This document shows positions 13,546 through 16,747 of a stretch of 64,000 bases of DNA, piece by piece (within the stretch, counting starts at the first letter, position 1; each line of letters opens with the position of its first letter). The notes beneath the pieces are model-generated. The model was not told the origin of the DNA, searched no databases, and worked only from the letters and a program-made list of their open reading frames with translations. Made by a program: the position numbers and the translations under genes. The stretch comes from Sphingomonadaceae bacterium 3R27C6 (GTDB lineage: Bacteria; Pseudomonadota; Alphaproteobacteria; Sphingomonadales; Sphingomonadaceae): positions 1 through 64,000 of the forward strand of contig SCNS01000002.1 of NCBI GenBank assembly GCA_005503215.1, written 5' to 3'.

Positions 13546-14955
13546 TCAAATATGCAGCGGCCGGCCGAACGCCGCGAGCACGCCTTCGTGCATCGTTTCG
13601 CTGAGCGTCGGATGCGGGAAGACGGTGCCGATGAAATCATCCTCGACCAGCTCGGCGGTCTTGCCGATCGTATAGCCCTGGATCAGCTCGGTGACTTCGG
13701 CGCCGATCATGTGCGCGCCGAGCAATTCGCCGGTCTTGGCGTCGAACACGGTCTTGGTGAAGCCCTCGGATTCGCCCAGAGCAATCGCCTTGCCGTTGCC
13801 GATGAAGGGGAAGGTGCCGGCCTTGACCTCGTAGCCGAGCTCCTTCGCCTTCGCTTCGGTCAGGCCGACGCTGGCGATCTGCGGGCGGCAATAGGTGCAG
13901 CCGGGGATGTTGCGCGGGTCCATCGCGTGCGGATGGTTGCCCGCGATCGCCTCGACCGCGATCACCGATTCGTGCATCGCCTTGTGCGCGAGCCACGGCG
14001 GCGCTGTGACGTCGCCGATCGCCCAGATGCCGGGGACGTTGGTGCGGCACATCGCGTCGGTGTCGATATGGCCCTTGGTCGTCTTTACGCCGAGCGCTTC
14101 GAGCCCGATATTCTCGGTGTTCGGGACGATGCCGATTGCGACGATCGCGTGGGTGAATTCGGCGCTTTCGGTCTTGCCGTCCTTGGTCTTGATCTTCGCG
14201 GTCACGCCGTTGGCGGTCGCCTTCAGCTCCTCGACCCCGGCGCCGGTGAAGATCGTCATGCCCTGCTTCTTGAGCTGCTTTTCAAGGAAGGCCGACACGT
14301 CGGCATCCTCGACGGGGACGAGGCGGTCGAGCATTTCGACGACGGTCACATCGACGCCCATGTCGCTGTAGAAGCTCGCGAATTCGATCCCGATCGCGCC
14401 CGATCCGATGACGAGCAGCTTCTTCGGCATCTCGGGCGGGACGAGCGCGTGGCGATAGGTCCAGATGCGCTTGCCGTCGGCGGGCGCGAACGGCAGGTCG
14501 CGCGCACGCGCGCCCGTCGCGACGATGATATTCTTGGCGGTGAGGGTTTCGGTGCCCTTCTCGCCTTTCACCTCGAGTTTGCCCGGTGCGGTCAGCTTGC
14601 CCTCGCCCATATGGACGGTGATCTTGTGCTTCTTCATCAGGAAGGCGACGCCCTGGCTGAGCTGTTTCGCAACGCCGCGGCTGCGCTTTACGACCGCGTC
14701 GATGTCGGCGCTGATCTGCGCCGCGACGAGGCCATAATCGCCCGCATGCTGCATATAATGATAGATTTCGGCCGAACGCAGCAGCGCCTTGGTCGGGATG
14801 CAGCCCCAGTTGAGGCAGATACCGCCGAGATTCTCGCGCTCGACGATCGCGGTTTTCAGGCCCAGTTGGGCTGCGCGGATCGCCGCGACATAGCCGCCGG
14901 GGCCGGAGCCGAGGACGATGAGGTCGTAGTTGGTGTCAGCCAAGGTTTGCTCCAT
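13546..14955 (-). CDS. lpdA: Dihydrolipoyl dehydrogenase (E3)
   Basis: A 469-residue FAD disulfide oxidoreductase with the N-terminal GSGPGGYVAAIRAAQLG fold, redox pair Cys47/Cys52 in GGICLNWGCIPTK, and the C-terminal FPHPTLSETMHE catalytic His-Glu motif. It reoxidises dihydrolipoamide of 2-oxoacid dehydrogenase complexes with NAD+. The ATG at 14955 is preferred over a TTG two codons earlier. Its ribosome-binding sequence (GGGAGAGGGG, about 7 bp away) belongs to the repeat at 14963-15021. It lies downstream of pdhC, with a DUF559 gene inserted between, so it is most likely the E3 of the pyruvate dehydrogenase complex. Confidence 0.96.
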   Translation of the reverse strand: MEQTLADTNYDLIVLGSGPGGYVAAIRAAQLGLKTAIVERENLGGICLNWGCIPTKALLRSAEIYHYMQHAGDYGLVAAQISADIDAVVKRSRGVAKQLSQGVAFLMKKHKITVHMGEGKLTAPGKLEVKGEKGTETLTAKNIIVATGARARDLPFAPADGKRIWTYRHALVPPEMPKKLLVIGSGAIGIEFASFYSDMGVDVTVVEMLDRLVPVEDADVSAFLEKQLKKQGMTIFTGAGVEELKATANGVTAKIKTKDGKTESAEFTHAIVAIGIVPNTENIGLEALGVKTTKGHIDTDAMCRTNVPGIWAIGDVTAPPWLAHKAMHESVIAVEAIAGNHPHAMDPRNIPGCTYCRPQIASVGLTEAKAKELGYEVKAGTFPFIGNGKAIALGESEGFTKTVFDAKTGELLGAHMIGAEVTELIQGYTIGKTAELVEDDFIGTVFPHPTLSETMHEGVLAAFGRPLHI

Positions 14956-15364
14956 TATCAATCCCCTCTCCCTTCAAGGGAGAGGGAGGGGCCCATTGCG
15001 AAGCAATGGGAGGGTGAGGGTCCGACAGCGCGGCAAGGATTGCCGTCAAAACTCCAGACAAATTTCCAGTCACGTCGTTGTTCCAGACGCGGAGCACGCG
15101 ATAGCCCTTGTCGTTCAGGAAGGCGTCGCGGCCCGCATCCGTTTGCGATTCGGCATGCTGCGATCCATCCACCTCGACAATCAAGCGCCGTTCCTGGCAG
15201 ACAAAATCTGCAATAAACGGACCGATCGGCTGCTGCTTGCGAAACTTGAAGCCACCTAGGCGACGATCGCGCAATCCACCCCATAGCTTCTTCTCTTGTT
15301 CGGTCAGGGTGCGGCGCAAGGCTTTGGCGCGTTCGAGCGTTTGGCGCGAATAGCCCGCCTTCAC
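14936..15364 (-). CDS. DUF559 endonuclease-like protein (Vsr/PD-(D/E)XK-type fold) in a repeat-flanked cassette
   Basis: A 142-residue protein matching the DUF559 family: LTEQEKKLWGGLRDRRLGG, then FKFRKQQPIGPFIADFVC and LIVEVDGSQHAE, with Asp53, Glu64, Asp66 and His70 as the expected metal-site residues. The fold is related to very-short-patch-repair endonucleases; no biochemical role is established. The GTG start lies directly beside the inverted repeat at 15365-15426, which supplies its G-rich ribosome-binding stretch. The last roughly 27 codons (PHPPIASQWAPPSP onward) are translated from the other repeat, and the stop overlaps the lpd start by 20 bp. The gene fills the gap between pdhC and lpd and looks like an insertion. 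Confidence 0.85.
   Translation of the reverse strand: MKAGYSRQTLERAKALRRTLTEQEKKLWGGLRDRRLGGFKFRKQQPIGPFIADFVCQERRLIVEVDGSQHAESQTDAGRDAFLNDKGYRVLRVWNNDVTGNLSGVLTAILAALSDPHPPIASQWAPPSPLKGEGIDNGANLG
14963..15021 (+). repeat. Cassette flank repeat, left copy
   Basis: Block A (about 32 bp, containing the perfect hairpin CCCTCTCCCTT-C-AAGGGAGAGGG), a variable small hairpin (ATTGC-GAA-GCAAT), and block B GGGAGGGTGAGGGT. The copy at 15365-15426 is the reverse complement of blocks A and B, identical apart from the variable hairpin. This copy encodes the tail of the DUF559 protein and provides the ribosome-binding site of lpd. Confidence 0.93.
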
Positions 15365-15426
15365 ACCCTCACCCTCCCACGCGCTGGCGCGCGCGGGCCC
15401 CTCCCTCTCCCTTGAAGGGAGAGGGG
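15365..15426 (-). repeat. Cassette flank repeat, right copy
   Basis: Inverted copy of the repeat at 14963-15021: blocks A and B are identical in reverse complement and only the inner hairpin differs (here a GC-only stem around GCGCGCGCCAGCGCG). It begins four bases after the pdhC stop codon and ends one base before the GTG of the DUF559 gene. Confidence 0.93.
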
Positions 15427-15430
15427 TTCA

Positions 15431-16747
15431 TTACGCCACCAGCCCCAGCGGGTTCTCCACCAGTTCCTTGAACGTCTTCATCAGCAGCGCACCATCCGCC
15501 CCGTCGATCGCGCGGTGGTCGAAGCTGCCGGTCGCCGACATCACGGTCGCGATCGCGAGCGCGTCGTCGACGATATAAGGCCGCTTTTCGCCCGCGCCGA
15601 TCGCCATGATCATGCCCTGCGGCGGGTTGATGACCGCGGTGAACTGCTTGATCCCCATCATGCCCATGTTCGAGATCGAGGCGGTGCCGCCCTGATATTC
15701 AGCGGGTTGGAGCTTGCCTTCCTTGGCCTTCGCCGCGAGCTCGGACATTTCGGTCGAGATTTTCGACATCGACTTGCCGCCAGCGTCGACGATGATCGGG
15801 GTGATCAGGCCGCCGGGGATGCTGACCGCGACCGAGATGTCGGCGCGCTTATACTGGCGCATCACATCGCCGCCGAAGCTGACGTTGCATGCGGGCACGC
15901 GTTCGAGCGCGACCGCGAGTGCCTTGATCAGCATGTCGTTGACGCTGAGCTTGACGCCGCGGCTTTCGAGGCTGGCATTGAGCTCACCGCGCAACTTGAG
16001 CAGCGCGTCGAGGCGGATGTCGACGGTGAGATAGATGTGCGGCGATTGCTGCATCGACTCGGTCAGGCGGCGCGCGATCGTCTTGCGCATGCCGCTGAGC
16101 TTTTCGTCCTCGTGCGGGATGCCGAAATCGGGGATGGCGCTGGCGGTTGCCGGTGCGGGCGCTGCTGCCGGAGCAGCGGCGGCGGGCGCGGCAGCAGCCG
16201 GGGCTGCGGCTGGAGCGGCGGCGCCAGTAGGCGCGCCTTCGAGGTCGGCCTTGACGATGCGGCCGCCGGGGCCGGTGCCGGTCAGGCTCTTGAGGTCGAT
16301 GCCCTGCTCAGCGGCGAGGCGCTTGGCGAGAGGGCTGGCTTTGATGCGGTCGCCCGACGCAGCGAAGGCGGCTGCCGGAGCCGGAGCCGGTGCGGGAGTT
16401 GGAGCAGGCGCAGCGGCGGGCGCTGGCGCTTCGGTCTTCTGTTCAGCGGCGGGAGCCGCGGCCGGGGCCGGCGCCGGAGCCGCCTTTGCGCTCCCGGCAT
16501 CTTCGCCCTCGCCCGCGATCACCGCGATCACGGTGCCGACCTTCACATTGTCGGTGCCTTCGGCGACGAGAATCTGGCTGACGACGCCTTCGTCGATCGC
16601 CTCGAACTCCATCGTCGCCTTGTCGGTTTCGATTTCGGCGAGCAGGTCGCCCGATTTGACCGTATCGCCTTCCTTGACCAGCCATTTGGCAAGGGTGCCC
16701 TCCTCCATCGTCGGCGAGAGAGCGGGCATTTTGAGTTCGATTGGCAT
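15431..16747 (-). CDS. pdhC: Pyruvate dehydrogenase complex dihydrolipoyllysine acetyltransferase (E2)
   Basis: A 438-residue E2 protein: one lipoyl domain (residues 1-75, lipoylated Lys43 in EIETDKATMEFE), an Ala/Pro-rich linker, a peripheral subunit-binding domain (IKASPLAKRLAAEQGIDL, GTGPGGRIVKADLE), a second Ala/Pro linker, and the catalytic domain ending near FDHRAIDGADGALLM with the HRxxDG active site. The PALSPTM motif at residues 8-14 is typical of the pyruvate complex. The ATG at 16747 begins at the lipoyl domain; sequence before it is not family-like. E1 genes are not in the window. The E3 gene lies downstream beyond the DUF559 cassette. Confidence 0.95.
   Translation of the reverse strand: MPIELKMPALSPTMEEGTLAKWLVKEGDTVKSGDLLAEIETDKATMEFEAIDEGVVSQILVAEGTDNVKVGTVIAVIAGEGEDAGSAKAAPAPAPAAAPAAEQKTEAPAPAAAPAPTPAPAPAPAAAFAASGDRIKASPLAKRLAAEQGIDLKSLTGTGPGGRIVKADLEGAPTGAAAPAAAPAAAAPAAAAPAAAPAPATASAIPDFGIPHEDEKLSGMRKTIARRLTESMQQSPHIYLTVDIRLDALLKLRGELNASLESRGVKLSVNDMLIKALAVALERVPACNVSFGGDVMRQYKRADISVAVSIPGGLITPIIVDAGGKSMSKISTEMSELAAKAKEGKLQPAEYQGGTASISNMGMMGIKQFTAVINPPQGMIMAIGAGEKRPYIVDDALAIATVMSATGSFDHRAIDGADGALLMKTFKELVENPLGLVA

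Follow-up and report, generated by a model that had tools for sequence, protein, structure and literature searches.

We analysed a stretch of 64,000 nucleotides from Sphingomonadaceae bacterium 3R27C6 (contig SCNS01000002.1, positions 1 to 64,000; hereafter the window), in which a gene of the DUF559 family (PF04480) lies between pdhC and lpd. Our results indicate that this locus consists of a predicted nuclease gene placed between matched inverted hairpin repeats, and that it is probably one copy of a recurring, likely mobile unit, in which the DUF559 protein is predicted to drive mobilisation by cutting its own repeats. A first-pass annotation had proposed a nuclease cassette bounded by repeats of the repetitive extragenic palindromic (REP) type and distinct from the systems of REP-associated tyrosine transposases (RAYT). 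This proposal is supported by the presence of such arms at DUF559 genes elsewhere, by the co-variation of arm sequence with nuclease relatedness, and by the occurrence of both empty and occupied junctions; movement is suggested by this presence and absence, and the cut-and-copy step that would underlie it is considered below.

On the minus strand, the locus reads pdhC, 5' arm, DUF559 gene, 3' arm and lpd (Table 1), and each arm is built, from the outside inward, of a 32-nt hairpin block, a small variable hairpin and a G-rich block. The arms proved to be inverted copies of this three-part repeat, as first annotated: the two 32-nt blocks are perfect complements with 400 nt between them, the G-rich block GGGAGGGTGAGGG of the 3' arm occurs again at 15366-15378 on the minus strand, and the small hairpin between these conserved blocks is the part that differs between both copies. 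The open reading frame (ORF; PF04480, E 1.4e-38) starts 1 nt past the 5' G-rich block and overlaps the lpd start region, with its C-terminal codons encoded by the 3' arm, also as annotated. A further claim, that the repeat gives lpd its ribosome-binding site, is possible if lpd starts at ATG 14955 and is not needed if it starts at TTG 14943, both being possible starts. The outer flank ATGGAGC....TTGGCTGA is recurrent in relatives with the same type of element (type A, below), therefore lpd may start at TTG 14943, which corresponds to ATG in empty alleles, with GGAG as its ribosome site. A scan of positions 14000-16500 against Rfam gave two sub-threshold matches only, Hammerhead_II and SAM-SAH.

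Arms at other DUF559 genes were scored as the best ungapped inverted match between the 300 bp upstream and the 300 bp downstream of the DUF559 domain (60 bp inward), using as controls shifted intervals of the same loci and, separately, the left flank of one locus paired with the right flank of another. At the window locus the match is far beyond chance, since a score of 16 was reached by 0 of 525 shifted intervals. The main comparison covered 80 genomes of the genus, presumably Sphingopyxis, to which the closest named loci belong (85-91% protein identity); together with named loci, these provided 106 distinct DUF559 genes, 96 of them with at least 250 bp on each side. Arms with a score of at least 14 flank 85 of these 96 genes, and 84 of 94 (mostly Sphingopyxis) once two weak domains are set aside, versus 1 of 525 shifted intervals. 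Furthermore, 299 Pseudomonadota genomes, of which 108 were positive, provided a sample of 69 loci, chosen among high-scoring matches and limited to one per genome; here 44 genes carry arms at score 14, versus 4 of 411 shifted intervals. Pairing mismatched loci gave 29% in the genus set and 8% in the Pseudomonadota sample, because related elements share arms. Among eighteen named loci, which include Sphingomonas, Magnetospirillum, Methylophilaceae and Burkholderiales, an inverted match was obtained for 17 and not for the Nitrospiraceae locus; because one of the search patterns was a peptide of the arm-encoded tail, this set is the least neutral. Among the 127 elements with an arm score of at least 18, 99 have their stop codon within or beyond the 3' arm. 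The search for DUF559 genes with such repeats in other genomes, suggested at first annotation, thus had a positive outcome.

Arm sequence tends to follow nuclease relatedness across insertion sites, whose neighbouring genes were named from their translated sequences. Arm class R1, that of the window element, is common to DUF559 genes at pdhC-lpd and at fabI-aroC, and class R3 to those at yqeY-dnaG and next to nadB, between it and an ABC-transporter gene. Conversely, the pdhC-lpd site holds several lineages (R1, R4 and a separate pair, L030 and L033), and yqeY-dnaG holds both R2 and R3. When only pairs with unrelated flanks are compared, arm sharing reaches 68% among the 53 pairs with at least 60% protein identity, 30% among 231 pairs at 55-60%, and 0-8% in the bands below 55%, the pairs within these counts not being independent. 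Within Sphingopyxis, a single clade for the pdhC-lpd elements of types A and B (R1 and R4) was rejected by the approximately unbiased (AU) test (p 0.022, one of four tests). The expected co-variation of the flanks with DUF559 clade is therefore present in this rise of arm sharing; the pattern that would mark a resident gene with chance repeats, namely the same gene at this site with unrelated flanks or DUF559 genes elsewhere devoid of repeats, is not the one obtained.

The pdhC-lpd survey comprised 78 junctions from the 80 genomes, with lpd found in 76 and three states set by eye: 19 junctions are empty, the window's type of element (type A) occupies 9, and another DUF559-arm type (type B) occupies 16. 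Both empty and occupied alleles thus exist among related sphingomonads, as had been foreseen; the remaining junctions comprise 3 repeat remnants (L059, L120 and L126), 23 with other ORFs, 2 short and 4 unresolved. On a flank tree of 69 rows built from the end of pdhC and the start of lpd, 29 changes are required for the states of the 67 labelled rows, versus 36.5 on average and never fewer than 30 after label shuffling, which indicates some inheritance, yet a fast turnover of content that would proceed through movement or exchange. The pentamer TAATG does stand at both outer edges of the window element, as annotated, and its proposed origin as a target duplication is not supported: among the nine type-A junctions the left copy exists only in this genome, the pdhC stop reading TGATC, TGATG, TGAAG, TGACG or TGACC in the other eight, and the right side reads ATAATG, AAGATG or AAAATG. 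The join reads TAACATG in 11 of the 19 empty junctions. In ten genomes (L047, L050, L051, L100, L106, L118, L119, L121, L124 and L125) the site is occupied by other stretches of about 215-720 bp with no DUF559 match, and these varied contents therefore mark pdhC-lpd as a general insertion hot spot.

The genome carries two DUF559 genes, the second of which is located between yqeY and dnaG with an inverted arm pair of its own, R2, unlike the window's R1 in sequence. A pattern search recovered 13 copies of the R2 repeat in this genome (control, 0). One gene-less compact inverted pair of this family lies in the window at 44631-44725, resembling the doublets known as REPINs, and it keeps the asymmetry of the gene-bearing element, with GGGCCTG on the left and GGGCATG on the right. 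Applying a pattern that requires this asymmetry (left arm, about 22 nt, right arm), we found 102 compact pairs in 41 of the 80 genomes and none with the reversed control pattern; the spacer measures 21-23 nt in 73 of 99 examined pairs, and 46 distinct 22-nt spacers display a median pairwise identity of 0.31 over their middle 13 positions. Of 47 loci examined for the site of the window pair, 24 were resolved on both sides: 4 carry the pair, 11 are cleanly empty and 9 hold something else, so that the window pair reads as a clean insertion. At yqeY-dnaG, 15 of 30 loci were readable; 9 hold DUF559, 5 a GIY-YIG gene, and one (L372) no gene.

A search with the window protein returned 1788 relatives; in the 120 matches listed, the labels, apart from a single DNA methyltransferase, read very-short-patch-repair endonuclease or endonuclease-domain protein. 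Its nearest solved structure by sequence is 3hrl, which was also recovered by fold comparison of an AlphaFold2 model (E 5.6e-9); the predicted local distance difference test score (pLDDT) of this model is 76.5, falling below 50 in the arm-encoded tail. The model further resembles the catalytic domain of the homing endonuclease I-Bth0305I (3r3p_B; E 3.7e-4, probability 1.00), an enzyme of the EDxHD group, and weaker matches include Toxoplasma mitoribosome chains (E 5.8e-4 and weaker), PvuRts1I (E 0.018) and Vsr (E 0.02). Residues D53, E64, D66, H70, Q44 and R79 are conserved in 99-100% of 173 DUF559 domains, the acidic residues and the histidine being putatively catalytic. The protein falls below the threshold of the vsr model TIGR00632 (20.2 bits, cut-off 97.85), and PHROGs gave weak endonuclease matches (best E 2.1e-5). 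A defence-system role was discarded, as PADLOC yielded just a weak DpdF match (E 0.0019). In Caulobacter cells that lack the methyltransferase ScmA, a DUF559-domain protein, VsrA, is required for the DNA damage response (PMC12907096); therefore, the family can act on DNA. The window protein shares its domain with VsrA, unlike which it has pdhC and lpd as neighbours, with no adjacent methyltransferase, and a position inside repeats.

With these properties, the DUF559 protein would recognise its own arms, probably as extruded or single-stranded hairpins, and nick or cut at the arms or at the empty junction, after which host repair or replication would copy the unit; the copying step is assigned to the host because we know of no joining chemistry for the DUF559 fold. 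Gene-less pairs would be copied in trans, and junctions inside conserved operons would represent the places where insertions survive. No duplication or excision product was seen in the sequences compared.

Several observations weigh against a mobile nuclease-plus-repeat unit. Arms at score 14 are missing from 25 of the 69 genes in the Pseudomonadota sample, and a DUF559 clade at rph-rdgB (site s4; L088, L093, L152, L156, L161 and L168) lacks a matched arm pair in 6 of 6 cases, these genes being possibly domesticated copies. The protein tree (104 proteins, 103 columns, many weak forks) requires 6 changes for arm class and 7 for insertion site, so that few events underlie the precedence of clade over site; the best tree divides R1 into two groups, with a single clade not rejected (p 0.196), and a single origin is likewise not rejected for DUF559 at yqeY-dnaG (AU p 0.18) or, with other genera added, for all pdhC-lpd rows (p 0.059). 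We found no target duplication, including nothing clear at 44631-44725. R2 compact pairs also occur in genomes without an R2-type DUF559 gene (e.g., G021). The R1 arm shows no amplification: within 2 mismatches, its 24-nt hairpin was found at the window locus alone, and compact R1 pairs were not found in the 80 genomes. Finally, the unrelated ORFs that fill 23 of the 76 pdhC-lpd junctions imply that this site may simply be permissive.

The best surviving alternative, which we nevertheless regard as unlikely, is a free-standing homing endonuclease: the protein would cut empty pdhC-lpd alleles, and homologous recombination via the flanking genes would then copy its gene into them, with arms that are incidental or serve only to protect the transcript. 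The locus shares with intronless homing, as outlined in the cited sections of PMC6083498, a similar predicted fold, an optional gene between conserved genes and the existence of empty alleles, and the presence of different DUF559 lineages at the same junctions agrees with this account. Unlike those endonucleases, however, the elements described here have terminal inverted repeats; arms flank most DUF559 genes examined and are common to related proteins at unrelated sites, and R2 arms form gene-less pairs at dispersed loci. Somewhat less probable still is a resident DUF559 gene in a permissive junction, beside which hairpins were acquired as RNA stabilisers or insulators, with presence and absence arising by exchange of whole operon segments. 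The unrelated ORFs just mentioned fit this account, as would co-transcription of hairpins placed inside an operon, but it leaves unexplained why mutually matched inverted arms are common to related proteins at unrelated sites, and why the gene-less pair of the window displays the same left/right asymmetry as a gene-bearing element. A conventional RAYT/REP system, in which a Y1 transposase would move the repeats as REPs and DUF559 would be a passenger, is very improbable despite its similar inverted REP-like arms and REPIN-like pairs, since related DUF559 proteins share arms, PF01797 is present in 15 of the 80 genomes and missing from 65 as well as from this genome, where a RAYT is thereby ruled out as mobiliser, and 0 of 8 PF01797 loci examined elsewhere carry R1 or R2 arms within about 500-600 bp.

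The nuclease-plus-repeat design does recall the REPtron, in which, according to the cited sections of PMC2817692 and PMC3116915, a RAYT gene lies between inverted REPs and REPINs constitute gene-less doublets. In both, a single small enzyme gene is bracketed by a pair of inverted palindromic repeats, related repeats also form inverted doublets without a gene (seen here for R2 but not R1 arms), and the spacers of the doublets are less conserved than the arms. They differ in the enzyme, a Vsr-like DUF559 protein here versus an HUH Y1 transposase (PF01797) in the REPtron; in the arms, which in both elements of this genome combine a hairpin with a G-rich block and have no GTAG tag; and in copy number, which is low here, as the R2 count illustrates.

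GIY-YIG genes show the same design. In 70 genus loci (high-scoring and picked among the matches listed, with UvrC-like proteins under-represented), arms were found at 56 genes at score 14, versus 13 of 420 shifted intervals, and at 53 genes at score 18, versus 1 of 420; mismatched flanks gave 18% and 12%. The five yqeY-dnaG loci with a GIY-YIG gene where other genomes of the genus hold DUF559 are L356, L365, L376, L377 and L384, and three of these genes have an inverted repeat of their own (score of at least 17). By a string rule, CGTCA is present in 19 of the 56 arm pairs, several of which have the stem and CCA tail described for CGTC-tagged REPs (Di Nocera 2013, PMC3733652); many of the remaining arms are TGTC variants or belong to a CGTTCGT... 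family, the latter not being of the CGTC REP kind. The cited sections of that paper report no dedicated transposase for these REPs, unlike the arrangement found here, where a GIY-YIG gene lies between such repeats. A CGTC repeat of the CGTCATTCCCGCGAAAGCGGGAACCCA type forms three compact pairs in the window (Table 1) and also serves as the arms of some GIY-YIG elements of the genus.

We tentatively extend these observations, in a proposal that we hold possible though short of probable, to a broad class of transposase-less mobile elements based on homing-type nucleases (DUF559 and GIY-YIG), each lineage with its own hairpin-repeat family, which would be the missing mobilisers of the non-GTAG repeats littering proteobacterial genomes, such as CGTC REPs and those of the GGGAGAGG type, the E. 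coli ycjD repeat among them. Small repeats of the REP and REPIN kinds are widespread in bacteria, and in the literature sections examined a dedicated enzyme, RAYT, has been proposed for the GTAG type only; the two unrelated nuclease families that lie within matched inverted repeats, frequently CGTC-tagged in one family, thus provide named candidate enzymes for non-GTAG repeats. If correct, this would help identify what spreads certain small repeats that are common in bacterial genomes, and would give a concrete role to DUF559, for which Pfam lists no known function. The PMC full-text search results examined contained no report of DUF559 or GIY-YIG genes inside REP-type repeats.

In E. coli, the DUF559 gene ycjD adjoins fabI, and the sequence on its 3' side (L456 2700-2925, E. 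coli K-12) contains CCCCTC...GAGAGGGTTAGGGTGAGGGG, a G-rich hairpin repeat. G-rich repeats were found on the 3' side only, with no symmetric arm pair at ycjD. When a 46-nt query containing this repeat was searched in 5426 E. coli genomes, 5375 gave matches, at a median of 18 places per genome. The repeat is likely BoxC, which was reportedly first described near ycjD. The BoxC table in PMC2267715, in the part cited, gives 22 copies found and 32 known.

Table 1. Coordinates of the DUF559 element, its neighbours and related repeats in the window
Feature	Position	Strand	Remarks
pdhC (E2 of pyruvate dehydrogenase)	15431..16747	-	upstream neighbour of the DUF559 element; stop 15433-15431
5' arm, outer 32-nt hairpin block	15395..15426	-	100% complementary to 14963-14994
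5' arm, variable inner small hairpin	15380..15394	-	GC-rich; read from sequence
5' arm, inner G-rich block	15366..15379	-	TGGGAGGGTGAGGG
DUF559 (PF04480) predicted nuclease gene	14936..15364	-	GTG start; 142 aa
3' arm, inner G-rich block	15008..15020	+	GGGAGGGTGAGGG
3' arm, variable inner small hairpin	14995..15007	+	ATTGCGAAGCAAT; read from sequence
3' arm, outer 32-nt hairpin block	14963..14994	+	inverted repeat with 5' arm block
lpd (dihydrolipoyl dehydrogenase)	13546..14958	-	downstream neighbour; probable start ATG 14955 or TTG 14943
Compact pair of CGTC-tagged repeats	13460..13532	.	immediately beyond lpd stop; repeat shared with the arms of some GIY-YIG elements (e.g., L448)
Further CGTC compact inverted pairs	18658-18726; 33375-33446		CGTCATTCCCGCGAAAGCGGGAACCCA type, as at 13460-13532
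Gene-less compact inverted pair (REPIN-like), R2 arm family	44631..44725	.	left and right arm like second DUF559 element; insertion-polymorphic

Two minor observations concern other sequences of the window and the genus set. Longer composite repeats, consisting of a hairpin and inner stem region followed by a second hairpin, were noted at 39519-39680 of the window and at G000:C1:164383 (L007), and they resemble the arms of about 100 nt of a DUF559 element of another family (L238). In addition, dnaG of six genomes (G002, G017, G030, G035, G056 and G065) gave a two-piece match split near residue 61 within one long open frame (945-964 aa), the pattern that an intein-like insertion would be expected to produce.

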